Source: Actinomycetota bacterium
Lineage (GTDB): Bacteria > Actinomycetota > Acidimicrobiia > Acidimicrobiales > JAJPHE01
Reading direction: 5' to 3'
DNA length: 32,020 bases
NCBI GenBank assembly: GCA_027315345.1
Contig: DAHUYE010000035.1
Span: forward strand, 1-32,020
Positions 10,444 to 29,065 of the stretch are shown here, piece after piece. Each line of letters begins with the position of its first letter. Position 1 is the first letter of the stretch. Under the pieces are notes generated by a model. It saw nothing but the letters and a program-made list of their open reading frames with translations. It searched no databases and was not told where the DNA came from. A program made the translations under genes and the position numbers.

Positions 10444-10467
10444 TAGACTAAGTCCATGACTAAGTCC
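10444..10467 (+). promoter_or_regulatory. Leaderless promoter and twin palindromic operator of the TA operon
   Basis: A -10 like TAGACT (10444-10449) ends 6 nt before the antitoxin ATG at 10456, so the message would start at or next to the ATG; no Shine-Dalgarno is present. The sequence GACTAAGTCC occurs at 10446-10455 and again at 10458-10467, a 12-bp period. Each copy contains the palindrome GACT-A-AGTC. Two palindromes over the -10 and start codon fit an antitoxin operator for autorepression. The -35 region is poor. Confidence 0.45.
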
Positions 10468-10689
10468 GTCGGGGTCCATGAGGCCAAGACCCATTTGTCG
10501 CGCCTGTTGGACGAAGTGGCGGCCGGGGAGGAGGTCCTGATCACCCGGCGCGGCCAGCCGGCGGCCCGCCTGGTGGCCATGGCCACCGGCACGCCCCGCG
10601 CCTTCGGCCTGGACCGGGGTCGACTGACGGTGCCGGAGGACTTCGACGCCCCCCTGGACGATGAGATTCTCGACAGCTTCGAGGCCTGA
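10456..10689 (+). CDS. Phd/YefM-family antitoxin
   Basis: Labile DNA-binding antitoxin expected to neutralise the PIN toxin encoded 2 bp downstream and to repress their joint operon. The 77-residue product has the Phd/YefM N-terminal dimer and DNA-binding domain, with SVGVHEAKTHLSRLLDEVAA and GEEVLITRRGQPAARLVAM. It ends in an acidic tail, DFDAPLDDEILDSFEA, typical of the toxin-wrapping segment. The start ATG lies on a leaderless promoter with two palindromes. Length and layout are normal. It follows the SWIM gene by 26 bp, but the promoter suggests separate control. Confidence 0.93.
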   Translation: MTKSVGVHEAKTHLSRLLDEVAAGEEVLITRRGQPAARLVAMATGTPRAFGLDRGRLTVPEDFDAPLDDEILDSFEA

Positions 10690-10691
10690 GA

Positions 10692-11078
10692 ATGCGCCTG
10701 CTGCTCGACACCCACGTCTTCCTGTGGCTCCTGGCCGAACCCGAGCGGCTCGGGAGCCGGCTCGGGGCCCTAGAAAATCCCGACAACGACCTGTTGCTCT
10801 CAGCAGTGAGTTCTTGGGAGATCGCCATCAAAGCGTCGGTGGGACGTCTCAACCTGCCCGAAGATCCGAAGCGCTACGTGCCCGACCGGATGCGAGCCAT
10901 CGGAGCCGAACCCCTACCCGTGCAGCACAATCACGCCCTGGCCGTGGGCGACCTGCCCGGACTGCACCGGGATCCCTTCGACCGGCTGCTGGTGGCCCAA
11001 GCCCGGGACCTAGGTCTACACATCGTCACCGCCGATCGGCAGATCGCCCGCTACGACGTCGAGACGATCCTCGTCTGA
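10692..11078 (+). CDS. VapC-like PIN-domain toxin (ribonuclease)
   Basis: Predicted Mg2+-dependent endoribonuclease of a type II toxin-antitoxin pair. The 128-residue product has the PIN acidic set: D6 in LLLDTHVFLW, E43 in SSWEIAIK, D94 and D97 in HRDPFDRLLVAQA, and D115 in IVTADRQI. All are present, so it should be active. It starts 2 bp after the antitoxin stop, with GAGG upstream. The last codons and the stop lie in a 26-bp duplicated segment. Its RNA target cannot be read from sequence. Confidence 0.93.
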   Translation: MRLLLDTHVFLWLLAEPERLGSRLGALENPDNDLLLSAVSSWEIAIKASVGRLNLPEDPKRYVPDRMRAIGAEPLPVQHNHALAVGDLPGLHRDPFDRLLVAQARDLGLHIVTADRQIARYDVETILV

Positions 11079-11311: not shown

Positions 11312-12343
11312 TCAGATGGCGGCGGACAGGGAGCCGATCGGCATGCGCAGGTCGGCCAGCATGTTCAGATCGGCTTGGGGCGCCCGGCCCAGGGTGGTGA
11401 GGTAGTTCCCCACAATCAAGGCATTGATGCCCGCCGTCATGCCCATGGTCTGCAGATCGCCCAGGGTGATCTCCCGCCCGCCGGCATAGCGCAGGATGGT
11501 GCGGGGCAGACCCAGCCGGAACAGGGCGATCCAGCGAATGGCATCCAGAGGTCGCACGGGCCGGCGGATGGCCAGGGGCGTTCCCGGCCGAGGATCGAGG
11601 AAGTTGACCGGCACCTCATCGGGATCGAGTTCCTGCAACTGTCCGATCAGCTCCAGGCGCTGGGGGTCGCTCTCCCCCATGCCGAGCAGCACTCCGCAGC
11701 ACAGCTCCATACCGGCCGCCTTGACCTCCTGGCATGTCTCCCACCGCTCGTCCCAGCTGTGGGTGGTGACGATCTGGGGGAAGTGGCTTCGCGCCGTTTC
11801 GAGGTTGTGGTTGTAGCGGTGGGTACCGCCCTCGGCCAGGCGCTGGGCCTGGCCGGGACCGAGGATCCCGGACGAGACGGCCACGTTGAGCCCCGTCTCT
11901 TCGGTGATGAGCGGGACGAGCTCGAGGATGCGGGACAGGGTCCGCTCATCGGGGCCGCGCACGGCCAACACGATGCAGAACTCGGTGGCTCCCAGAGCCG
12001 CAGTCTCCCGGGCCGCGGCCAGGACCTCATCGGTGTCGAGAAAGGGGGTGGCCTTGACCGGTGTGTCGAAGCGGGAGGACTGGGCGCAGAAGTGGCAGTC
12101 CTCCGGACAGCCGCCGGTCTTGGCCGACAGGATGCCCTCCACCTCGACCGTGTCACCGCACCAGGCCAACCGGACCTCGTGGGCCAGAGCGGCCAGTGCC
12201 GGCACGGAACGGTCGGGTACCGCCGCCAGGGCAGCCAACTCGTCCGGGCGCAGAAGCCGCCGCTCCTCGAGCAGGGCCGCGCCGGCGCCGGCCATCAACT
12301 CCCGCACGAGAGACGGGTCTTCGGTTACTTGGCTGATCCCCAT
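11312..12343 (-). CDS. bioB: Biotin synthase BioB
   Basis: Radical SAM enzyme that inserts sulfur into dethiobiotin, the last step of biotin synthesis. The 343-residue product has the [4Fe-4S] motif CPEDCHFC with C79, C83 and C86, followed by [10 protein letters not shown]. The [2Fe-2S] ligands are represented by the Cys in [11 protein letters not shown], the Cys pair in [13 protein letters not shown] and the Arg in [23 protein letters not shown] is the substrate-loop motif. The ATG at 12343 has no strong Shine-Dalgarno. It lies 43 bp after the TenA-fold gene and just before bsaP, at the tail of the hydrogenase gene run. No other bio genes are in the window. Confidence 0.97.
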
Positions 12344-12386: not shown

Positions 12387-12869
12387 TCAGGCGGCCGGGG
12401 CGAGCTCTTCGCGTTCGTCCAGAAAGGCCCACCACGCCTCGGCCCCGGCCCGCAGGGCGGGGACCAACTCCTCGGCTGTCCCGGTCAGGCTGGACACGGC
12501 GTCCCACGCCCAGGCCCCGTGGCGGACATCGACCTCGGCGTGGTGGTCCCAGAACGACACCGCCGCGTCGCTCATGCCGTAGTGGGTGCGAAGGCCTTCG
12601 GCTTTGCTCAGGGCCACCTCGGCGGACTGGGACTCATCGGCCAGGTTGGCCGCCACCAGATCCCGTGCCTCTCCTTCGGGGAGCCCGGCCACCAACTGGG
12701 CCAGGAAGCCGGGCAGGTAGGCCTCGAAGTGACGGTACTGGGCGGCGTAGGAGGCCAGTTCCGCCTCCGACACCTCGCCGCGCTCCCAGCGCCGGTAGAA
12801 GGGATGGTCCAGCAGACGCCGGCCGGCCAGCGCGTCAGTCAATACGTCGTTCCCCAGTCGGTTGCTCAT
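12387..12869 (-). CDS. TenA/heme-oxygenase-fold putative metal-dependent oxidase
   Basis: A 160-residue all-helical protein that starts with the TenA/PqqC-like segment [18 protein letters not shown], then [14 protein letters not shown] (H47), [10 protein letters not shown] (E79) and [16 protein letters not shown]. The last contains H110-xxx-D114-xx-H117, the third-helix metal signature of heme-oxygenase-like diiron oxidases such as CADD and UndA (family knowledge). The first-helix Glu ligand is not obvious, so metal content is uncertain. AGGA lies about 8 nt before the ATG at 12869, and the gene overlaps the hydrogenase small-subunit gene by 35 bp while lying 43 bp before bioB. The substrate is unknown; a role in biotin or cofactor synthesis, or in oxygen protection of the hydrogenase, would be guesses. 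Confidence 0.75.
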
Positions 12870-13362
12870 CCGCAGATCCTAACGGCCGACCGACAGTCAC
12901 TCCCTGGCCGGCCGGGCGGCTGGCCAGCAGCCCGAACAGGGCGGTGGCTATGGCGTCGGGAGTCGGCGGGCAACCGGGGATCTGGAGGTCGACGGGCAGA
13001 ACAAGCTCAACCGGCCCGAGGATGTCATCGGGGGAACCCAACAGGCCGATACCCAGCGCACAGTCTCCGAGGGCGGCCACCCGCCGCGGCTCGGGCATGG
13101 CCTCATAAGCGCGGCGCAAGGCGGTGCTCATCCGGCTCGTGATCGCCCCGGTGACCAAGAGGACGTCGGCGTGCCTGGGCGACGCCACCATCCCCAGTCC
13201 GAAGCGGGACAGGTCATAGTGAGGGCCCGACGCCAGCGTCAGCTCGTGCTCACAGCCGTTGCAGGAGCCGACGTCGCAGTGCCGGATGGCCAGGCTCCCC
13301 GTCCGATGGGGCAGATCCAGCTGCCGACGCAGGCGGCGCAGATCGCGCAGCAGTGTGAACAT
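12835..13362 (-). CDS. [NiFe]-hydrogenase-like small subunit (HycG/HyfI/NuoB family)
   Basis: Electron-transfer subunit that carries the [4Fe-4S] cluster next to the catalytic subunit. The 175-residue product has CDVGSCNGCEHEL with C34 and C37, GDCALG with C101 and IPGCPPTPDAI with C131, the complete four-Cys set. The CNGC arrangement, rather than the NuoB Cys-Cys pair, favours a hydrogenase-type subunit over complex I. The ATG at 13362 overlaps the stop of the large-subunit gene (TGATG). It has no twin-arginine signal, so the complex faces the cytoplasm. The C-terminal end overlaps the next gene. Confidence 0.9.
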   Translation of the reverse strand: MFTLLRDLRRLRRQLDLPHRTGSLAIRHCDVGSCNGCEHELTLASGPHYDLSRFGLGMVASPRHADVLLVTGAITSRMSTALRRAYEAMPEPRRVAALGDCALGIGLLGSPDDILGPVELVLPVDLQIPGCPPTPDAIATALFGLLASRPAGQGVTVGRPLGSADEQPTGERRID

Positions 13363-14762
13363 CAGCGGTCCACGCAGGCGTAGCAGAGCTCGAAGCTCTT
13401 GTTGATGAGTGGGAAGTCGGGCAACAGGCTCCCGGCCGCGGCGGCGGCCACCGCCGGCCAGTTGGCAAAAGAAGCCGTGCGCAGTTGCAGACGTATCACC
13501 TGTCCGTCACGAGCCTCGAGGATGCACACGGTCCGGCCCCGTGGCCCCTCCACCACGCCGATGCCGGTCTCATCCCCCGGCCCGGCTCCGGGGATACGCA
13601 CGGCTGGACCGGGTTCAGCTCGAGACGCGGTCACGGGCCGATCCAGCAGCATCCCGAGGAGGTCGAAGGACTGCCAAAGTTCGAGCGCCCGCTGCTCGTA
13701 GCGGGCCCGGACGTCTCCGTCGGGCCGTTCGGGCAAGGCCGGCGCGAAACCGTCGTAGGAGAGCCGGCCAGAGTGGCAACGCTCGTCCCTGTCCAGGCCG
13801 GCGGCACGAGCGGCCGGGCCGACGACGCCGAGCGCCCGGGCCCGGCCGGCGTCGATCACGCCGACGCCGGCCAGCCGATCCTGGAAGGACGCATTGAAGG
13901 CCAGTTCCCGCCAGGCTCGGGCCGCGTCCGTCCGGACGGAGTCCAACTCGTTGGCCGCTCTCCGCACGGCGGAGGCGTCCCAGTCGAGGTCGCTGGCCCC
14001 GACCTGCACGGCTCCCCGAAGGAACCGGTGGCCAGTCAGAGCGTCATTGAGACGGCGGGCCCTTTCCGTCAGCGCCGCGAAGGCGGCATTGCCTGCCGCC
14101 ATACCGACCCCGGCGCAGATGGCGGACACGTCGTTCAGGTGGTTCCAGACCCGCTCGAGCTCGACCAGGATGGTGCGCACCCGCCTCAGTTCGGAAGGGG
14201 GCTCCAGCGCCAGCACCTGCTCGCACGCGTCGGCGTAGGCGATGGCATTGGTGACCGAGCAGGCCGCACAGGTTCGGGCCACCAAGGCCATCGCCTCCCT
14301 CAATCGGCGCCCCTCGGCGGCGGCCTGCAATCCGCGGTGCTTGTAGAAGAGTTGAGCGTCGAGGTGGAGGATCCGGTCACCAACTACGTGAAAGCGGAAG
14401 TGCCCGGACTCGATCACCCCGGCGTGAATCGGCCCCACCGCCACCTGGTAGGCGTCATGGCCCGACACCCGCACCGTCCAATCCTCCAAGGCCGCGCCGT
14501 GGGCGACCAGGGGCCGCATCGGACTGTGACCGTTGAAGCCGACCCCGTAGAGATCCGCGGCCTCCCGCTCGTCCCAGCCGGCGGCGGGCGCCAGGTCCAC
14601 GATGGACGGAACCGACCCTTCGACCACCGGAGCCGAGATGAGGCCGGGCGACCCGTCAGGACCGATGAGGACGGTGCGCACGACCGGTCCGGTCGCGTAT
14701 AGGGCTCCAAAGATGGCCGACCCGGACAGGGCGTCGGCCACGTCGCCGCGGTACCCACTCAC
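13362..14762 (-). CDS. [NiFe]-hydrogenase-like large subunit (HycE/HyfG family, NuoC-NuoD fusion)
   Basis: Predicted catalytic subunit of 466 residues. Residues 1-100 form a NuoC-like domain (GWDEREAADLYGVGF). The NuoD/HycE domain follows, with VGPIHAGVIESGHFRFHVV. Both nickel-binding pairs are present: C165-A-A-C168 in ARTCAACSVTN and C460-Y-A-C463 in SFELCYACVDR. The first differs from the usual CGIC. The protein ends exactly at CxxCxxR, with no tail for a maturation protease to remove. The GTG at 14762 overlaps the upstream stop (GTGA). The open frame continues further upstream but only as an antisense-like shadow of the HyfF-like gene. Confidence 0.9.
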   Translation of the reverse strand: MSGYRGDVADALSGSAIFGALYATGPVVRTVLIGPDGSPGLISAPVVEGSVPSIVDLAPAAGWDEREAADLYGVGFNGHSPMRPLVAHGAALEDWTVRVSGHDAYQVAVGPIHAGVIESGHFRFHVVGDRILHLDAQLFYKHRGLQAAAEGRRLREAMALVARTCAACSVTNAIAYADACEQVLALEPPSELRRVRTILVELERVWNHLNDVSAICAGVGMAAGNAAFAALTERARRLNDALTGHRFLRGAVQVGASDLDWDASAVRRAANELDSVRTDAARAWRELAFNASFQDRLAGVGVIDAGRARALGVVGPAARAAGLDRDERCHSGRLSYDGFAPALPERPDGDVRARYEQRALELWQSFDLLGMLLDRPVTASRAEPGPAVRIPGAGPGDETGIGVVEGPRGRTVCILEARDGQVIRLQLRTASFANWPAVAAAAAGSLLPDFPLINKSFELCYACVDR

Positions 14763-16222
14763 GACGCGCCCCGCACCAGGGCCGACACCAGGGCGCTGCC
14801 TGGCAACGAGAAGGCCACGGCCGTCAGGCCCAGCAAAAGACCGGAGGCGCCAACCGACAGGGCGACCACAGCGCCCAGACCGACCGGGTGGGCCGTGGTC
14901 CGGCGGCGGGACTTCCCGGCCAACATCTCGAGCAGGGCGTGGGCGAGCCCGAGAAAACCGAGGGCGAGAAGGGCGGCCGCCGCCGTAGCCGCCCAGGCAT
15001 GACCGGAGCCGTAGCCACCGGCCAGGATCATCACCTCGCTCACGAACAACGGGGACGGCGGCAGTCCGGCCAGAGCCCCGAGGGAGACCCCCATGGCTGT
15101 GCCGAGTCCCGGGGCACTGCGGCCGATGCCGCTGGGGGCATGACCGGCGCAACGTGGATCGTGGACCAACAAGGGCGTCGAGGCATAGAAGCCCAGCGAC
15201 TTGGCCAGAGCGTGCCCGACTATGTGCACGGCTACTCCGGCCAAAGCCAGGGGACTGCCGAAGCCGATACCCAGGGCCAGGACACCCATGTGCTCGAGGC
15301 TCGAATAGGCGAGCAGCCGCTTCCAGGCCAGGGACTGCCAGAGGAATGGAACAGCCACGGCCAGGGAGGCCAGCCCGAACACGATGAGGATCCGATGGGC
15401 CGATCTCGGACCCACCGCCGGGCCGATGGCCCGCTCGACTCTCCAGGCCACGACCAGGACAGCGGGCAACAAGGCGGCGGACAGGAGGGCCGAGACCGGG
15501 GGAGGCGCCTCCGAGTGGGCATCGGGCAACCAGTTGTGTACCGGCGCCCAGCCGACCTTGGCGGCCAGACCGACCAGGACGAGTACATAGGCCACCAGAG
15601 CCTCGTTGTGGCCGCCGGCGTAGTGGCCGAGATGGTGCCAGGACAGCCCGGCCCATCCGTCCCCGGGCAGTCCGCCGGCCAGCAGGCCCAGCCCGAGCAG
15701 GGCGACGCCGAGGCCGAGGGAGGTGAGGATCAGGTACTTCCATCCCGCCTCCAGGGCCCGAGGGCGCCCGGAGAAGCCGACCAGCAGGGCCGAGGTGGCG
15801 GTGGTGGCTTCGATCAGCAGCCAGGCCATGGCCAGGTTGCCAGCGATCGGCACCGCCAGCAGGGTGGCGATGAACACGAGCAGCACGACGTAATAGATGC
15901 GCTCGCGCCGCTGTGGGCCCACCACCGAGGTGGTCGACGTGCGCAGATACGAGGCCGAGAGCATCACACTGGCGAGGCCGACCACGCCGATGACCGGAAC
16001 CAGGATGGCTCCCAGCGCGTCGAGGGCGATCCAGCTTCCGGCCGCCGGCTGGTTCGGGACACGCAGGACCACGGCGCTGAAGGCCAGGGCCAGACCCGCG
16101 GTCAGGGCCATGCCCAGGACGGCAATCCGCTGCACCATCCTGGCGGGTATCACCGCGGTGCCGGCCGCGGCCAGCACCGGGACCGCCACCACCGACTCGG
16201 CCAGGAACAGGGCGCTAGTCAC
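14759..16222 (-). CDS. HyfF-like antiporter-type membrane subunit (NuoN/MrpD family)
   Basis: Proton-pumping type subunit of 487 residues with about 14 hydrophobic segments. Conserved charged residues of the family are present: E138 in WLLIEATT, K162 in GWKYLILTSLG, K222 in AAKVGWAPVHNWLPDAHSEA, and the lysine in FLWQSLAWKRLLAYSS. I chose GTG 16222, which overlaps the upstream stop (GTGACTAG) and has CAGGAG 5 nt before it; the ATG at 16255 has no such support. It is one of two antiporter-like subunits in this operon, which suggests ion movement is part of its function. Confidence 0.9.
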   Translation of the reverse strand: MTSALFLAESVVAVPVLAAAGTAVIPARMVQRIAVLGMALTAGLALAFSAVVLRVPNQPAAGSWIALDALGAILVPVIGVVGLASVMLSASYLRTSTTSVVGPQRRERIYYVVLLVFIATLLAVPIAGNLAMAWLLIEATTATSALLVGFSGRPRALEAGWKYLILTSLGLGVALLGLGLLAGGLPGDGWAGLSWHHLGHYAGGHNEALVAYVLVLVGLAAKVGWAPVHNWLPDAHSEAPPPVSALLSAALLPAVLVVAWRVERAIGPAVGPRSAHRILIVFGLASLAVAVPFLWQSLAWKRLLAYSSLEHMGVLALGIGFGSPLALAGVAVHIVGHALAKSLGFYASTPLLVHDPRCAGHAPSGIGRSAPGLGTAMGVSLGALAGLPPSPLFVSEVMILAGGYGSGHAWAATAAAALLALGFLGLAHALLEMLAGKSRRRTTAHPVGLGAVVALSVGASGLLLGLTAVAFSLPGSALVSALVRGAS

Positions 16223-16826
16223 GCAGGCTCCTGAGGGCGCCGGCATCACCGGCACCGAACTCGGCGAAGATCCTCTGGTGGAACACCGAGGCCACCAGGG
16301 TGAGCAGAGTCAGGTCGAGGGTGACCCCGAGCTCGATCTCCAGCGATGACCCCCCGTGCAGGGTCAGAGCGGCCAGGGCCAGGCCGTTCTCGACCAGGAC
16401 TATCCCGAGGACGTGGAACAACGTCGCCCGTCGCGTCGCCACGGTCGACACGCCGAAGGCCACCAGGGCCAGAACGCCCTGATGGGCGTAATGGTCGGCG
16501 GCGGGTGAGATCGGCACCAGCCAGGTCAGGGCCAGTGCGAATCCCAGGGCCAGCCCGGCCCGGACCGGGGCGGCCACCTTGGCGCGCACCGGGCGCAGTT
16601 CCCTGGTCCTACTGACGAGGAACATCAACAGCCCGGCAAAGGCCACCGCCCTGACCGCCAGGGCCGCCGCCGCCAGCACGTCGTTGCCGGTGCGGGCGCG
16701 GGATAGCGCCACGCCGACCAGGACCAGGGCCTGGGCCGTGACCAAGCCGACCGCGGTCGAGCGCCGGCGCACGACCACGACGCCCAGCCCGAGCACCACC
16801 AGGGCCCACACGGCCGGACCGTTCAT
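16215..16826 (-). CDS. HyfE-like membrane subunit (NuoK family)
   Basis: Membrane subunit of 203 residues with about six helices. The segment LGIVLVENGLALAALTLHGG resembles the glutamate-bearing helix of HyfE and NuoK. The ATG at 16826 overlaps the upstream stop (ATGA), and the gene ends inside the start of the HyfF-like gene. The frame stays open to 17591, but that part is Gly/Arg-rich and lies under the HycD-like gene, so it is not coding. In hydrogenase-4-type complexes this subunit links the antiporter subunits to the HycD-like anchor (family knowledge). Confidence 0.87.
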   Translation of the reverse strand: MNGPAVWALVVLGLGVVVVRRRSTAVGLVTAQALVLVGVALSRARTGNDVLAAAALAVRAVAFAGLLMFLVSRTRELRPVRAKVAAPVRAGLALGFALALTWLVPISPAADHYAHQGVLALVAFGVSTVATRRATLFHVLGIVLVENGLALAALTLHGGSSLEIELGVTLDLTLLTLVASVFHQRIFAEFGAGDAGALRSLRD

Positions 16827-17746
16827 CGGGGCGCCAACCAGGCCGCCACGCCGAGCAGGGCGAGAGCCGACCCCACACCGAGCAGCCGAGGGACGAAGAG
16901 GACCCGCATCTTGGCCACCACGGTCTCCAGCACGGCCAGGGCGCCGGCCAGCACGGCCAGAACGGCGGGCAGCGCCACCAGCTGGACGGCCACCGTCCGG
17001 CCGTGGGGAAGGAAGACCTGGGCCGCAATGACCAGCACGATCCAGTGGCGCGCCGCCGCCGCCCACTGGAGATAGGCCTGATCCCGCCCGGCGTACTCCA
17101 GGAGCGGCCCCTCGTGGATCATGGTCAACTCCAGATGGGTGTCGGGGTTGTCCACCGGTTGGCGGCCGGTCTCGGCCACGACGACGATGCCGAAGGCGAG
17201 CGCGGCCAGAGCCAGGGCCGGAGTGGCCCACGCCCCGCCCCCGGCGGTTCCGGCCACCACTCCCCGCAGGTCGGTGGTCCCCGCCGACAGCGAAGCCACG
17301 CCGAGGCTGAGCACAAGCGTCGCCTCCATGAACACGGAGATGGTGAGGTCCCGGCTGGCTCCCATCAGGGAGAAGCCGTTGCCGGTGTCCCACGCCGCGG
17401 CGGCGATGGCGAAGCGGGCCAGCGCCAGCAGCCCGACCAGGGCGAAGGCGTCGTGGCCTACCCCCCAGCCCGGGGCCACGCCGGCGGCGGGGACGAGCAG
17501 CACCGCCGCCACCATGCACGCCGCCACCGTGGCCGGGGCCCACCGGTAGACCTGGGTGGCTCCCTCCACTTCCACCGTGCTCTTGGACCACAGGCGGCGC
17601 AGCTCCCGGTAGGGCTGTAACGGGCCGGGCCCGCGCCGGCCCTGGAGCCGGGCCTTGGCCGCCTGGATCAACCCGGGCAGGAGCGGAGCGCCGAGCACCC
17701 CGCCACAGACCTGCACCGAGGCCTCGGCCAGAGTGGCGCCACCCAT
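16823..17746 (-). CDS. HycD/HyfC-like membrane anchor (NuoH family)
   Basis: Membrane anchor of 307 residues that joins the hydrogenase arm to the antiporter arm. It shows the NuoH/HycD loops ARLQGRRGPGPLQPYREL at 32-49 and ETGRQPVDNPDTHLELTMI at about 192-210, then HEGPLLEYAG. The ATG at 17746 shares one base with the upstream stop (TGATG), and the end overlaps the HyfE-like start (ATGA). About eight helices are visible. The fit to HycD is close: the PVDNP-THLELTMIHE block is typical of formate hydrogenlyase-type complexes. Confidence 0.92.
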   Translation of the reverse strand: MGGATLAEASVQVCGGVLGAPLLPGLIQAAKARLQGRRGPGPLQPYRELRRLWSKSTVEVEGATQVYRWAPATVAACMVAAVLLVPAAGVAPGWGVGHDAFALVGLLALARFAIAAAAWDTGNGFSLMGASRDLTISVFMEATLVLSLGVASLSAGTTDLRGVVAGTAGGGAWATPALALAALAFGIVVVAETGRQPVDNPDTHLELTMIHEGPLLEYAGRDQAYLQWAAAARHWIVLVIAAQVFLPHGRTVAVQLVALPAVLAVLAGALAVLETVVAKMRVLFVPRLLGVGSALALLGVAAWLAPR

Positions 17747-19695
17747 CAGACCAGCCCCAGCCGGGCCGCCACCAGAAGGAGCAGGACGACGCCCATCAGG
17801 TAGCCGACGTAGGTTCCGAGGTTTCCGGACTGCAGGCGTCTGAGCCGGGTGGCGGCGGCCATGGCGAGCCGGTGCGTGGGCGCATAGACGCGCTCTTCGA
17901 TCAGGTGGGGAACCTGACCCTGGTAGCCCACCTCCTGGAGGACTCCTGCCTCCTGGCGGCTCACCACGTCGCGCTGGGGACGCAGGACGACCTCCAAGGC
18001 CAGGCGCAGGGGCTTGGTGAAACCGGCGCCGGTCCACTCCAGTCGGCGGCTGACCACCTGGCCGCAGGCCCAGGTGGGGGCAGCGGGTGCGGCGGCCCGA
18101 CCCCGACCTCGGAGAAGCACCAGGGCACCGGCCAGGACGATGAGAAGGACAGCGATGGCCGGGCTCGGCAGGGAGCCGGTCCCGGGTAAACGCAACCCCA
18201 TCCCGACCGGTAGACCCGCCGACCAGGGCGCCAGACCGACCAGTCGCGCCAAAAGGACGCCCGGAGCCACGCCGAGGGCGGCACAGGCCAGGGCCAGAAA
18301 GGCCACCGCCCCGGCCATTCCCGCACTGGGTTGGCGGGCGTCCACCGGAGGATCCCGACGGGGCGAGCCCAGCAACACCAGACCCACCACCTTGACGAAA
18401 CAGAAGGCGGCCAGGGCGGCGGTGGCCGCCAGGGCCCCCAGGGCGAGGGCACCGGCCAGGCCATCGGCCACTCGCCCGTAGCGGGGGACGTGCACCAGGG
18501 CCTGGAGGGTCAGCCACTCCGACGCGAACCCGTTGAGGGGTGGCAGACCGGCTATGGCCATCGAGCCGACCAGGAAGGAGCCGCCCACTACGGGCACCCG
18601 GCGCAACAGTCCGCCGAGGCGGTCCAGGTCCAGGCGGCCAGCCATCCGTTCGAAGGCGCCGGCGCAGAGGAACAGCAGCGACTTGAACACGGCGTGATTC
18701 ACGGTGTGCAGGAGGGCGGCCCCCAGCGCCAGGGCGGCCCAACCGTCGGCTCCGCGGTTGCGCAGCAGCACACAGGCGCCTATGCCCATCACGATGATCC
18801 CGATGTTCTCGATCGAATGCATGGCCAGGAGCCGCTTGAGGTCATGCTCGAAGAGGGCGTAGGTCACGCCCCCCACCGCCGAGAGGGCGCCGGTGGCCAG
18901 GACGAGGATTCCCAGCCAGACCGGCAGCGGTCCGGCCCAGTCAACCAGCACCCTGACCATCAGGTAGATGCCGATCTTGATCATCACTCCGCTCATGAGC
19001 GCCGAGACCGGCGCCGGAGCGATGGGATGGGCGCGGGGCAGCCACACGTGCAGGGGCATGACCCCGGCCTTGGTGCCCAGTCCGACCAGGGCGGCCACCA
19101 CCACGACCGCTTGCAGCCCGGAGCCGGCGTGGATCACCCCGGGTGAGCCGATGGCTCCGGCTCGGGCCAGGAGAAGGACGGCCACCCATGTCCCCACCCC
19201 GCCGAGATGGGTAACGGCCAGGTAGGTGAACACCGACTGGCGGGCGTGGCGATCCTCCTGGTGGGCCACCAGGATGACCGCGGCGGGCAGCAGGGTCATC
19301 AACTCCCAACCGGCCAGCAAGGTGGCCGGGTCCCGGGCGCAGAGGACGCCCACCATGGCCAGCAGGAAGCCGGCGGTGAGGGAACCGACCGCCCGGTCCT
19401 TACCCGTCGGGCGCAGGTAGTCCCGGGCGAAGCACAGGGCCGGAGCTCCGACCAGTCCCAGAGTGCCGAGGAACAGCCCGCTCAGCGGATCCAGGCCGAG
19501 GCGCGGGGTGAGGTGGTTGGTGAAGGTCCCGCCCACGGACGTCCCGGAGGCCAGGGCCCAGAAACCGGCCACCGCCACCGCCGCCGCCCCGGCGGCCTCA
19601 AGGGAAAGGCCCGTTCGAAAGCTGGATCGGGCGGCGCACAGCAGGCCTCCGGCTCCGACCAGGGCCACGCCGGTCAGCAACAGTGCACCGATCAC
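17746..19695 (-). CDS. HyfB-like antiporter-type membrane subunit (NuoL family)
   Basis: Largest membrane subunit, 649 residues with about 15 hydrophobic segments and a C-terminal amphipathic stretch. Key residues include E131 in LAGWELMTLLP, K209 in GTKAGVMPLHVWLPRAHPIA, and K240 in PVSALMSGVMIKIGIYLMVR. This block is nearly diagnostic for HyfB/HycC rather than NuoL. The C-terminus has the HyfB-type domain with TWACGQ. The GTG at 19695 overlaps the arsR stop (GTGA). It is the first structural gene of the module. Confidence 0.92.
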   Translation of the reverse strand: MIGALLLTGVALVGAGGLLCAARSSFRTGLSLEAAGAAAVAVAGFWALASGTSVGGTFTNHLTPRLGLDPLSGLFLGTLGLVGAPALCFARDYLRPTGKDRAVGSLTAGFLLAMVGVLCARDPATLLAGWELMTLLPAAVILVAHQEDRHARQSVFTYLAVTHLGGVGTWVAVLLLARAGAIGSPGVIHAGSGLQAVVVVAALVGLGTKAGVMPLHVWLPRAHPIAPAPVSALMSGVMIKIGIYLMVRVLVDWAGPLPVWLGILVLATGALSAVGGVTYALFEHDLKRLLAMHSIENIGIIVMGIGACVLLRNRGADGWAALALGAALLHTVNHAVFKSLLFLCAGAFERMAGRLDLDRLGGLLRRVPVVGGSFLVGSMAIAGLPPLNGFASEWLTLQALVHVPRYGRVADGLAGALALGALAATAALAAFCFVKVVGLVLLGSPRRDPPVDARQPSAGMAGAVAFLALACAALGVAPGVLLARLVGLAPWSAGLPVGMGLRLPGTGSLPSPAIAVLLIVLAGALVLLRGRGRAAAPAAPTWACGQVVSRRLEWTGAGFTKPLRLALEVVLRPQRDVVSRQEAGVLQEVGYQGQVPHLIEERVYAPTHRLAMAAATRLRRLQSGNLGTYVGYLMGVVLLLLVAARLGLV

Positions 19696-20027
19696 TGGGC
19701 GCTCAGCTCACGCAGGATCGACTGCTGATTGACCAGTTGGGCGGTAATGATCTCCCGGCCGGCAGCCAGGAGATCGAAGACCCGGGGGTTCTCGACCCGG
19801 TAGTAGATGGTGGTGCCCTCCCGGCGCGATCCGACCAAGCCGATGCGACGGAGGGCGGCCAGGTGCTGAGAGGTGCTTCCCTCCCCCAGTGCCAGTTCGG
19901 CCTGCAGCCATCCGACCGACCGCTCCCCCTCCCGGAGGAGTTCGAGGATGCGCACCCGGGCCGGATGGCCGAGGACCCTGAACAGATTCGCCTTCACCTC
20001 GTGCACGGGACCGGAGGCCGGGCTCAC
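19692..20027 (-). CDS. ArsR-family regulator heading the hydrogenase-like operon
   Basis: Small winged-helix repressor of 111 residues. NLFRVLGHPARVRILELL is the typical ArsR helix, and STSQHLAALRRIGLVGSRRE (about 51-70) is the recognition helix and turn. It has no cysteine at all, so it cannot sense metals through thiols as classic ArsR proteins do. The GTG at 20027 lies 7 nt after a TATACT -10 box, a leaderless layout, and the upstream 12-12-12 inverted repeat is its likely operator. Its position resembles mycobacterial Rv0081, an ArsR regulator in front of a hydrogenase-like set (recalled, not searched). The signal is unknown. Confidence 0.92.
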   Translation of the reverse strand: MSPASGPVHEVKANLFRVLGHPARVRILELLREGERSVGWLQAELALGEGSTSQHLAALRRIGLVGSRREGTTIYYRVENPRVFDLLAAGREIITAQLVNQQSILRELSAQ

Positions 20028-24797: not shown

Positions 24798-26294
24798 TCA
24801 GCCGGCTCCGCCCCCCGCCTTCAGCAACTCGGCGTAGGCCTCATCGATGTTGCGGCGCAGCCCGGCCGGGTCGGTCACCGCGGCCGGATCGGCCAGGAGG
24901 CCCATGTCCAGGGAACCGTTCTGGCTGAGGGTGGTCAGGTTGGCAGCCGTGCCCGCCACCGGCCCAAGGGGAATGCCGGCCGTGACCTGGGCCCCGGCGA
25001 TGAAGGTCGGGAAGGGCGCCCCCCGCAGGTTGGAGGTGGCCAGGTCGATCCGGGCCGCCTGCTGGCGGGCGAAGCGGGTGGTGACCGAGGTGGGCAGCAG
25101 GTTGGCCACGCCGGCCACCGAGCTCATGGCCCCCCGGCCGCTCACCCCGTGGCGGCGGGCCGCCATCAGGTCGCGCACCTGATCGAAGCGCTCCCGGGCC
25201 GTGTCGGCTCCGCCTCCGGGGACCTGCAGCGGGACCGGGGTGAAGGAGTTTCCCCCGGCCGCCTTATCGGCGCGGGTGCTGACCACGAAGGTCAGGTTGA
25301 TGGCCTCGACGGGAGTGTCCCGCTCGGCGTGATAGGCGAGGGCGCCCAGGGCGGCCCCGGCCACGAAGAAGTCGTTGACCGATCCGCCCATGGCCTTGGC
25401 GGCCGCCTTGGCCGGCTCCAGGGGGACCTGGATGACCTCCAGATGCCGGCGGCGGGAGCGATGGGTCCACAGCGGCGCCCCGGCGTTGATGCTCCGGCCG
25501 CCGGCGGCGGTGTCCAAGGTGGAGCGGATCTGGCCCACGGCGCTGCCGACCCCACCCGGAATGCGGCCGGGGTTACCCAGGAGACCGCCGACCTCTCCGG
25601 CCAGGCGGGTCACCATGCCGCCCTGGCGGCGCAGGTTGTGGCCCAGGGTCCGGGTGGCGGTGTCGAGGATGGAGTCGCTCATGTCGGCGCCGGCCTCGAG
25701 CAGCTCGCCTTCCTCGGCCGCGGCCGCCTCCGCGAAGATCGCCTCCAAATCCACATCGGGGGGCCGGGGCACCTTCCGCTCCAGGTCGGTGTACACCTCG
25801 GCCATACGCAGGGCCCCGATCCCGTCGGCCACGGCGTGGTGCTGCTTGGTGAACAGGGCGCCGCTCCCGTCGGCCAGACCCTCGATCACATAGAACATCC
25901 ACAGCGGCCGGGTGCGGTCGTAGGGCTCCTCGTAGAGCCGGGTCACCAGGTCCAGCAGCTGGCGCATGGAACCGGGCGCAGGCAGGCTCAGGTGGCGGAC
26001 GTGGTAGGCCAGATCGAACTCCGGATCGGTGGCCCACACCGGGGGGGCCAGGCGGCCCAGGCCGGGGACGACCCGTTCCCGCAGCCGGGGCACCTTGGCC
26101 AGGCCGTACTTGACCTTGGCCAGCATCAGGTCGTAGTCCCCGGGCTGGTCGAGGAGGGTCAGGATGGCCCCGCTGGGGTTCATCCAGGGGTCCTTCTCGA
26201 TGTTCCACATCAGCGCTTCCTGATCGGACATACGCCGGTCGAAGGCCATCTCCCGGGGGCGGTACTCGGTGGGGTGCTTATCGGGGGATGGCAT
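24798..26294 (-). CDS. Wax ester synthase/diacylglycerol acyltransferase (WS/DGAT)
   Basis: Transfers acyl groups from acyl-CoA to diacylglycerol or fatty alcohol, making storage triacylglycerol or wax ester. The 498-residue product has the catalytic motif HHAVADG at 152-158, preceded by FTKQ. PLWMFYVIEGL comes before it, and GGSVNDFFVAGAALGAL and NLRGAPFPTFIAGA are the conserved C-terminal blocks. GGAG lies 6 nt before the ATG at 26294. It starts 11 bp after the PlsC-like gene on the same strand, so the two form a short neutral-lipid operon. Length is typical. Confidence 0.94.
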   Translation of the reverse strand: MPSPDKHPTEYRPREMAFDRRMSDQEALMWNIEKDPWMNPSGAILTLLDQPGDYDLMLAKVKYGLAKVPRLRERVVPGLGRLAPPVWATDPEFDLAYHVRHLSLPAPGSMRQLLDLVTRLYEEPYDRTRPLWMFYVIEGLADGSGALFTKQHHAVADGIGALRMAEVYTDLERKVPRPPDVDLEAIFAEAAAAEEGELLEAGADMSDSILDTATRTLGHNLRRQGGMVTRLAGEVGGLLGNPGRIPGGVGSAVGQIRSTLDTAAGGRSINAGAPLWTHRSRRRHLEVIQVPLEPAKAAAKAMGGSVNDFFVAGAALGALAYHAERDTPVEAINLTFVVSTRADKAAGGNSFTPVPLQVPGGGADTARERFDQVRDLMAARRHGVSGRGAMSSVAGVANLLPTSVTTRFARQQAARIDLATSNLRGAPFPTFIAGAQVTAGIPLGPVAGTAANLTTLSQNGSLDMGLLADPAAVTDPAGLRRNIDEAYAELLKAGGGAG

Positions 26295-26305
26295 GGTGGC
26301 TCCGA

Positions 26306-27085
26306 TCAGGTGTCGCGGCCTGGACGGCGGTCCGCCTCGGCGTTGGGATCGCCCCGGTATCCCGGAGGGTAGGTCCGGATCAGTTCCTCCTCCGTCGGGG
26401 TCCGCCGCCGGCGGGCCTCGATGGGGAGAAGGGCCGTGATCTTCTTCATGATGGCCCGGGTGGCCACATCCGGGTCCTTGGCTGTCACCTTGAAGGGCTG
26501 ACCGACTCTCACCGTCACCACCGGCTTGGCCTGGCCCGGCCAGGGCAGGCGGGGCAGGCGCTCACTGCGGGGCCAGACCTTCTCGGTTCCCCACAGCCCG
26601 ACCGGCACCACCGGCACGCCGGTCATGGCCGCCAGCCGGGCCGCACCCCAGCGCCCCTTGAGCTCGGGGTCGAAGAAGGCCGGGCCCCGGGGGATGGTGC
26701 CCTGGGGCGCCATGGCGATCAGATACCCGGCCCGCAGGGAGTCGGCGGCCCGCTCCAGCGGCTCGTCCGAGCCGGTCCCCCGCTCCACCCGGATGCCGCC
26801 CATGGCCTTGGCGATGGCTCCGACCACCGGTACGTCGAAGACCTCCTTCTTTCCCAGGAAGCGCCCGTTCCGCCCCGACTTGGCCACCAGGTAGCTGACC
26901 GCCACCGAGTCGTAGTAACTGCGGTGGTTGAACACCAGGATGGCGCCGCCGGTGGCGGGGATGTTCTCGATGCCCTCGATGACGATGCGGGCCCAGGGAT
27001 CGAGCCCCGGCTGACTCAGAGGCCGCAGCCAGGCCTGCAGTTCCCGCCCGGCCAGTCGGACCACGCTCCCGGCACCCTCAGCCAC
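26306..27085 (-). CDS. PlsC-like 1-acylglycerol-3-phosphate O-acyltransferase
   Basis: Acyltransferase of 259 residues from GTG 27085; a TTG at 27112 would add nine residues. Motif I is FNHRSYYDS, with H54 and D59 in the HX4D pattern. Motif III reads APQGTIPRG instead of the usual PEGTR, a Glu-to-Gln change at a conserved site, so the exact acceptor may differ. PVVPVGLWGTEKVWPRS is motif IV. It would supply phosphatidate for the WS/DGAT gene that follows after 11 bp (inference). No signal peptide; membrane association through the N-terminal helix is likely. Confidence 0.88.
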   Translation of the reverse strand: MAEGAGSVVRLAGRELQAWLRPLSQPGLDPWARIVIEGIENIPATGGAILVFNHRSYYDSVAVSYLVAKSGRNGRFLGKKEVFDVPVVGAIAKAMGGIRVERGTGSDEPLERAADSLRAGYLIAMAPQGTIPRGPAFFDPELKGRWGAARLAAMTGVPVVPVGLWGTEKVWPRSERLPRLPWPGQAKPVVTVRVGQPFKVTAKDPDVATRAIMKKITALLPIEARRRRTPTEEELIRTYPPGYRGDPNAEADRRPGRDT

Positions 27086-27178
27086 ACCTGGACCGTAGGC
27101 CCAACGGGGCAATCTGTCGACGGGGCACCTTCGTCCCCCGACCCCTGGCGGCCAGGATCCGCCAGTGGGGTGGCCTCC

Positions 27179-29065
27179 TCAGCCCGAGGACTCGGGGGCG
27201 GGGTACTCCTTGGACAAGGCCGTCATCACCCCGCCCAGGGCCACCAGCGCCACCGCCCCGGCCGCTTCGACCGCCTCGGTGGAGTCCATCCCCGTAGAGG
27301 CCAGGGCTGCGCCCGAAGCCGGGGCGGTGGGCGGCACGGCAGCGGGCGGGGCCGACCCGGTGGTGGCCGGGGCCGAGGTGCCGGTGGGCCCGGCGGCGGC
27401 GCTGACGCAGACCACCCCGCTGGGCTGGCGGCGGGGCGGACCGGGCTCCTGAGTGGGCTGGGCGTTGGGCGGGACGGTGTAGGGACGACCCATTCCATCC
27501 GTGGCCAGTACCCCGTTGGACAAGCCCTGCTGGTCGATCTCCTCGGTGGAGGTGGTGTCGATGGTGATGCCGCCGGGTCCGCCCAGGACCAGTCCGTCCA
27601 GGGGCATCGGCACCGCCGGCAGCACCGGGGCGGCCGGGTTGGAAGCGGCGGCGAAGTTGAAGGCGCCGGTCAGATCCCCGACCGTCCTCCGCCTCCAGGC
27701 GCTGAGATTGGGAACCGGCGTGCCAAAGCGCGTTTCGATGAGACGGAGCTGGGAGGTGTGGTCGGACACGCCCGAATAGACCAGGCCGCCCCGGCTGTAG
27801 GGGGAGATGACCACGCAGGGAACCCGGAAGCCGAGCCCGATCGGGCCGGTGACGCCTTCGGACTCGGCCACCGAGGCGATCGGGACAGTGATGTATTCGT
27901 CGGGTGTACCCGGGGGCGCCGTCGGGGGTGGGACGTGATCGAAGAATCCCCCGTTTTCGTCATAGCTGAGGATCACGGCCGTCTTCTCCCACACGGCCGG
28001 ATTGGACAGAAGGGTGTCGAGGATGTGGGCCAAGGCGTACTGCCCGTACTGCGGCGGGGCGGCCGGGTGCTCGCAGTAGAGGAAGTCGGTCACGACCCAG
28101 GACACCGACGGCAGGGAATTGGTGGCCACGTCGATTTCGAAGTTTCCGGGAGTGGCCGGGCTCATCCCGATGGTGGGGAGCAGCGCCTTCTGATTGAGCG
28201 TCCCGGCCGAGTTGTACTGCTTGAAGTAGCGCAGGATGTTGTCCATGAGGAGGCCGCCCTCCAGGCCCTCAAGGGAATCCGGGCTCTGGTAGACCTTCCA
28301 GCTCACGCCGGCCTCCTCCAGCACCTCGGGCATGGTCTTCCAGGTGTAGGAGTTGTAGAGCTGGGGCTGGGCCGCCAAGGACCCGAAGGTCTCCACCAGC
28401 GGTCCGCCGTACTGGCCGTGGGGATCGAGCATCCCGGACATCCAGTACAGCCGGTTGGGGTAGGTGGGCCCGATGACCGAGCAGTGGTAGGCGTCGCAGA
28501 CGGTGAAGGCGTCGGCGAGGGCGTAATAGAAGGGCAGGGTGGAGCGGTTGTAGTGGCCCATGATGATGGGAGCGTTGGCCGCTCCATCCACCGCCACGTG
28601 GGTGCGCAGCCAGTTGTCCATGGCCCCGTTGTTCCAGCACCGGTGCTGGGGTCCCCAGTCATGGGTCGGGTCGTTGAGCCACTGGCCGTCGTGGGTGGCA
28701 TCCTCGAGCAGCTCGAAGGGCGAGGTGTAGCCCACGCTGGTGGCGCCCACCCCCGGCTCCCACCCGAACTGGTTCCAGATCGGATAGCTCTTACCGCCGA
28801 CCTGTTGCTCGAGCACGGTGGGGTCATCGAAGCCGCGCACACCGGACAGGGTGCCGAAGTAGTGGTCGAAACTGCGGTTCTCCTGCATGACGAAAACGAA
28901 GTGCTCTATATCGGACAGGTCCCCACAGCCGGCCGGGTCGGAGGCGGCGAAGGCCCGGTCGACCACCGAGGCCAGCCAGGAGTCGAGGCCGGTGGCCCCG
29001 AGGCCGATAGCGGCGGCCGCCCCCAGGAACTTCCTCCGGCTGAGACCTCTACTGACTGACGCCAT
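27179..29065 (-). CDS. Tat-exported phospholipase C-like phosphoesterase with C-terminal sorting-like tail
   Basis: Acid-phosphatase/phospholipase C superfamily enzyme of 628 residues. It begins with a twin-arginine signal (SRRKFLGAAAAIGLGATGLD; RR at 10-11). The catalytic start HFVFVMQENRSFDHYFGTL (E62-N63) is followed by THDWGPQHRCWNNGAMDNW, a metal-site block, and YSGVSDHTSQLRLIETRFG. A Pro/Ala-rich linker covers about 535-587. The end is LASTG (588-592), then a hydrophobic stretch AVEAAGAVALVALGGVMTAL and a short tail with one lysine, which looks like an LAxTG sortase signal but lacks a strong basic tail. It probably cleaves phospholipids or other phosphoesters outside the cell. Confidence 0.92.
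   Translation of the reverse strand: MASVSRGLSRRKFLGAAAAIGLGATGLDSWLASVVDRAFAASDPAGCGDLSDIEHFVFVMQENRSFDHYFGTLSGVRGFDDPTVLEQQVGGKSYPIWNQFGWEPGVGATSVGYTSPFELLEDATHDGQWLNDPTHDWGPQHRCWNNGAMDNWLRTHVAVDGAANAPIIMGHYNRSTLPFYYALADAFTVCDAYHCSVIGPTYPNRLYWMSGMLDPHGQYGGPLVETFGSLAAQPQLYNSYTWKTMPEVLEEAGVSWKVYQSPDSLEGLEGGLLMDNILRYFKQYNSAGTLNQKALLPTIGMSPATPGNFEIDVATNSLPSVSWVVTDFLYCEHPAAPPQYGQYALAHILDTLLSNPAVWEKTAVILSYDENGGFFDHVPPPTAPPGTPDEYITVPIASVAESEGVTGPIGLGFRVPCVVISPYSRGGLVYSGVSDHTSQLRLIETRFGTPVPNLSAWRRRTVGDLTGAFNFAAASNPAAPVLPAVPMPLDGLVLGGPGGITIDTTSTEEIDQQGLSNGVLATDGMGRPYTVPPNAQPTQEPGPPRRQPSGVVCVSAAAGPTGTSAPATTGSAPPAAVPPTAPASGAALASTGMDSTEAVEAAGAVALVALGGVMTALSKEYPAPESSG

Follow-up and report, generated by a model that had tools for sequence, protein, structure and literature searches.

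A CADD/PabS-type gene with an internal in-frame deletion between hydrogenase-type genes and bioB in an actinobacterial genome

What does a small protein with a heme-oxygenase-like fold do between hydrogenase-type genes and bioB? The question arises from a contig of an Actinomycetota bacterium, of which a stretch of 32,020 nucleotides (here called the window) was analyzed. The original prediction had placed a short open reading frame with a putative diiron site at this position, and both the frame, which starts with ATG, and its location between the two neighbors were borne out (Table 1). The frame is coding: from its first residues onward the translation aligns with 30 or more orthologues, and its GC content at the three codon positions (0.75, 0.50, and 0.87) resembles that of the neighboring genes.

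Table 1. Coordinates of the CADD/PabS-type gene, its deletion junction, and the adjoining genes within the window
Feature	Position	Strand	Basis and remarks
CADD/PabS-type gene with internal in-frame deletion, 160 aa	12387..12869	-	Sequence matches and orthologue alignment; Y25, K89, E79, H110, D114, and H117 kept
Deletion junction near codon 79, GCC GAT GAG TCC CAG	12627..12641	-	About 54 codons of every close orthologue absent; probable slippage between imperfect 9-bp repeats
NuoB/HyfI-like subunit gene, upstream neighbor	12835..13362	-	C-terminal tail enters the CADD-type gene by 35 bp; neighbor, not a functional part
bioB, downstream neighbor	11312..12343	-	TIGR00433 above its cut-off; 43 bp past the stop codon; neighbor, not a functional part

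The 160-residue protein is a member of the heme-oxygenase-like group and is closest to the CADD/PabS family of self-sacrificing p-aminobenzoate (pABA) synthases. Pfam assigned Haem_oxygenas_2 (5e-11) and TENA_THI-4 (4e-5), and NCBIfam assigned the CADD family TIGR04305 (1.5e-22) at 80 bits, a score under the curated cut-off of 200 bits, as are those of the full-length orthologues of the order (95-120 bits). By both sequence and structure, the best PDB match was CADD (CT610) of Chlamydia trachomatis (1rcw and 8va9, ~2e-13 by sequence). Descent from this family is thus supported by the best family match, the best PDB match, and the grouping of the protein with full-length orthologues. Among these, the closest relatives belong to the same order (e.g., L013 and L078, the latter being the nearest in the tree) and share about 50% identity with the window protein over the common columns. 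A further relative is NePabS (NE1434) of Nitrosomonas europaea, a full-length Fe/Fe enzyme shown to make pABA (PMC11965152), which has the family and the sacrificed residues in common with the window protein. TenA, PqqC, and UndA share the helical fold, but for a full-length orthologue their Foldseek values lie at 1e-5 to 1e-4, versus 1e-11 for CADD. The assignments as TenA-type thiaminase or PqqC were rejected, given that TENA_THI-4 reached just 4e-5 and that both rank under CADD by sequence and structure. The same holds for an UndA-type fatty acid decarboxylase, which is absent from the PDB sequence matches, ranks well under CADD with the full-length orthologue model, and would find its ligand set incomplete here. 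The fold group and the comparison with CADD put forward in the original prediction therefore stand, CADD being nearest in both sequence and structure, while its functional readings do not.

The main feature of the gene, overlooked in that prediction, is the in-frame absence of about 54 internal residues that are present in every close orthologue. The match to CADD (~231 aa) falls into two pieces, with residues 13-81 of the query corresponding to CADD 15-83 and residues 72-152 to CADD 135-217, so that CADD residues 84-134 are left without counterpart. In an alignment with 32 full-length orthologues (from relatives of which six were in genome contigs and further ones in whole genomes), a gap of 54 columns opens in the window protein, spanning invariant E, P, H, F, and Y as well as other highly conserved positions. 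The segment is likewise present in NePabS and in all full-length orthologues of the order, which measure about 210-216 aa. We surveyed split matches in three overlapping samples, drawn from the order (397 genomes), the class (395), and the phylum (396), and the family model (216 positions) matched every strong orthologue in one piece, with the window genome alone giving two (3-79 and 134-215). Two distant and weak matches at the class level (G417 and G595) are also in pieces, yet lie within open frames of more than 200 codons. Searches of the window genome found neither the missing middle piece elsewhere (to E-values up to 10) nor a second CADD-like protein.

The junction itself is suggestive of how the segment may have been lost. 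In orthologues such as L068, the segment is preceded by GCC GAC GAG and followed by GCC TAC GAG TCC CAG, and in an ancestor of similar sequence, slippage between these imperfect 9-bp repeats would yield the in-frame junction. It is also conceivable that the population carries a full-length CADD/PabS gene, an ordinary pABA synthase, and that through an artefact of assembly, consensus, or strain a deleted path or a minority allele ended up in the contig. The draft genome consists of 106 contigs and is the only one available from its genus, and all conserved positions outside the gap are intact, as expected of a full-length working gene; against this, the deletion is exactly in frame and the junction repeat is imperfect and about 9 bp long, and we consider such an artefact unlikely. 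An imperfect repeat of this length is too short to collapse an ordinary short-read assembly.

In CADD, Y27 and K152 are consumed to make pABA (PMC11965152), and the metal set consists of three His and three carboxylates (PMC11965152, PMC13108848). Both sacrificed residues have equivalents in the window protein, Y25 for Y27 and K89 for K152, and these are invariant in the 32 orthologues. For the six metal ligands, numbered as we take them to be in the CADD structure and then placed on the alignment, the correspondence is partial. The HxxxDxxH residues H110, D114, and H117 were located as originally claimed and align with CADD H174, D178, and H181. Two other residues attributed to the metal site fared worse. 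H47 occupies a variable position, where orthologues have H, F, Y, L, I, V, S, and others, and E79 aligns with CADD E81 in the first piece of the match and with E142 in the second, being thus a single residue where two separate ligands belong. H88 and Y141 of CADD have no counterpart. The position of Y141 is Tyr in the full-length orthologues of the order and Phe in NePabS; at that of CADD Y170, the window protein has F106, and NePabS likewise has Phe (F177). With H88 gone and E79 alone for E81 and E142, the three-His, three-carboxylate set is incomplete and, as judged from the aligned residues, the metal site is damaged rather than intact.

AlphaFold was run for the full-length orthologue L013 and for the window protein with equally shallow alignments of seven sequences each. 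The L013 model was confident (pLDDT 94.7, pTM 0.90) and matched CADD best in the PDB (TM 0.91, E ~1e-11), well ahead of PqqC, TenA, and UndA. For the window protein, CADD was still the best structural match, but with 54 residues missing the complete seven-helix bundle was not obtained and the predicted fold was poor (pLDDT 65.9, pTM 0.46), which suggests a disturbed fold in this model. The low confidence may in part be due to the alignment, whose other rows all carry the missing segment.

The short protein could nevertheless still make pABA or carry out a related oxidation, with a site rebuilt from E79, H110, D114, and H117, either mononuclear or across a dimer. The retention of Y25, K89, and all other conserved positions outside the gap, the short branch, and the presence of folate genes without PabB would be in keeping with this, and some enzymes of the superfamily have been reported with mononuclear iron (PMC13108848). 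However, H88, Y141, and one of E81/E142 are lost, and in the reported mononuclear case the missing ligands are those of the third ligand helix (PMC13108848), a helix that is intact in the window protein. Moreover, the predicted fold is poor and no other genome has such a form. Activity of this kind appears distinctly improbable to us, and the more specific proposal of a naturally shortened working CADD of ~160 aa, with one Glu standing for two, a rebuilt metal site (mononuclear or shared across a dimer) for making pABA, and no PabB in the genome, even more so.

Signs of decay were sought in the remainder of the protein. Of the columns with conservation of 95% or more among the orthologues, 34 are represented in the window protein, all without change, and the branch of this protein is not accelerated (terminal branch of 0.29 substitutions per site; root-to-tip distance of 0.56 versus a median of 0.89). 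With free decay along most of the branch, several of these positions would be expected to differ. Three readings are thus left, namely a recent deletion, a product still in use, or a deletion that the population does not really have, and the sequence alone does not separate them. The full retention of conserved columns and the kept frame are also expected of a working product.

The neighbors offer little help in assigning a function. According to the original prediction, a diiron protein at this position might protect the hydrogenase from O2 or act in pimelate or biotin supply with bioB. The genes are on the same strand, with a 35-bp overlap with the HyfI-like gene and a 43-bp gap to bioB, and a scan of the junctions found no promoter-like or terminator-like sites between them, so co-transcription is possible, which would not alone imply a common task. 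However, the loci of about 30 orthologues, examined with up to ~10 kb of flanking sequence depending on the contig ends, contained neither bioB nor hydrogenase-type genes, i.e., there is no preference for either neighbor. Conversely, the most similar hydrogenase operon, in the relative G022, adjoins neither CADD nor bioB, the CADD gene of that genome being on another contig, and the bioB loci of four relatives (G001, G047, G203, and G123) adjoin neither CADD nor hydrogenase genes. The C-terminal tail (~25 aa) with which the HyfI-like protein enters the CADD-type gene is missing in two homologues (G022 and G047), which end before it, as expected of a lineage-specific join, and this is what the arrangement looks like. 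An all-against-all BLAST of orthologue neighbors yielded no cluster that points to a function; most clusters of at least three loci reflect the close relationship of the genomes or consist of ORFs in the wrong frame. The two roles are thus without supporting evidence and largely refuted by the survey, and we regard them as very improbable.

Several other genes of the window may be mentioned. The hydrogenase-type operon (13362-20027, minus strand) is of the membrane-bound, complex-I-like type, with HyfB, HyfF, HyfG-like, and HyfI-like genes and an ArsR-type regulator gene (19692-20027); a similar operon with the regulator occurs in G022. Its large subunit has both CxxC pairs (RTCAAC and ELCYACVDR). 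Two adjacent small ORFs (10456-11078, plus strand) resemble, by eye, a Phd/VapB-type antitoxin and a PIN-domain toxin, and a wax ester synthase/DGAT-type gene, an acyltransferase gene, and a phosphoesterase-family gene follow in a row at 24798-29065 (minus strand).

The distribution of CADD was compared with that of PabB. We searched for PabB with TIGR00553 and read the results by hand, counting a second chorismate-binding match of more than 180 bits beside the TrpE-like one as PabB. By this rule, PabB was absent from 27 of the 29 CADD-bearing relatives (one of these, G380, being only 58% complete) versus 24 of the 53 relatives without CADD. Fisher's test gave p ~1e-5 overall and 8e-4 when restricted to genomes with a completeness of 90% or more, values that are optimistic since the genomes tested are related to each other. 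It seems that a CADD/PabS-type synthase takes the place of PabB in this actinobacterial group, and this complementarity within the order is the most useful by-product of the analysis. The two CADD-bearing genomes with PabB (G074 and G116) have a full-length CADD plus an extra PabB-type match over the cut-off, in a frame of ~600 codons; in G116 this frame also matches Aminotran_4 and looks like a PabBC fusion.

The window genome itself has just one chorismate-binding protein, scoring above the TrpE cut-off (TIGR00564), and no PabB, along with dihydropteroate synthase (folP), folB, and folK. That PabB is missing does not in itself demonstrate a working window gene, because about half of the relatives without CADD (among the relatives G001-G058) also seem to be PabB-less by the hand-read bit-score rule. 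The two other genomes of the same taxonomic family (G001 and G002) are among these, having neither CADD nor PabB, and keep dihydropteroate synthase; life without both is therefore possible there. G000, G001, and G002 have a second class IV aminotransferase, a candidate PabC that was rejected because its scores stay under every curated cut-off and several subfamilies fit it about equally well.

Taken together, we favor the reading, at a probability of roughly 60%, that the window gene is a recently inactivated CADD/PabS-type pABA synthase and not a partner of the hydrogenase or of biotin synthesis. Its ancestor would have been a self-sacrificing pABA synthase that, judging from the family, supplied pABA for folate. 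In the intact enzyme, the dimetal site activates O2 and a radical arrives at a Tyr, the side chain of which is cleaved to become the ring of pABA (PMC11965152, PMC13108848), with the amine given by a Lys; this chemistry has been shown for Chlamydia and Nitrosomonas (PMC11965152, PMC13108848) and, by analogy, probably extends to the orthologues of the order. About 54 codons would then have been lost in frame, probably via slippage between the two imperfect 9-bp repeats, which would have taken away the last portion of the first ligand helix, a pair of short helices, and the beginning of the second ligand helix. The fusion product would retain the Tyr and the Lys together with the HxxxDxxH on ligand helix three, but would have a single Glu in place of the two required and would lack H88; the canonical dimetal site should not form, and the protein would most likely be inactive as a pABA synthase. 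As no other conserved position has decayed, the loss would be recent, and the cell would presumably import pABA or use another route. Speaking against inactivation are the lack of a PabB to take over, the 34 intact columns, and the kept frame.

The occurrence of CADD-type pABA synthases across an actinobacterial order, mostly in genomes without PabB, extends the Chlamydia/Nitrosomonas route to uncultured environmental bacteria, and the window gene amounts to a natural deletion test of the enzyme. Should the short form be dead, the lineage must rely on pABA from outside or on some unknown route; should it be active, the dimetal model would call for revision.
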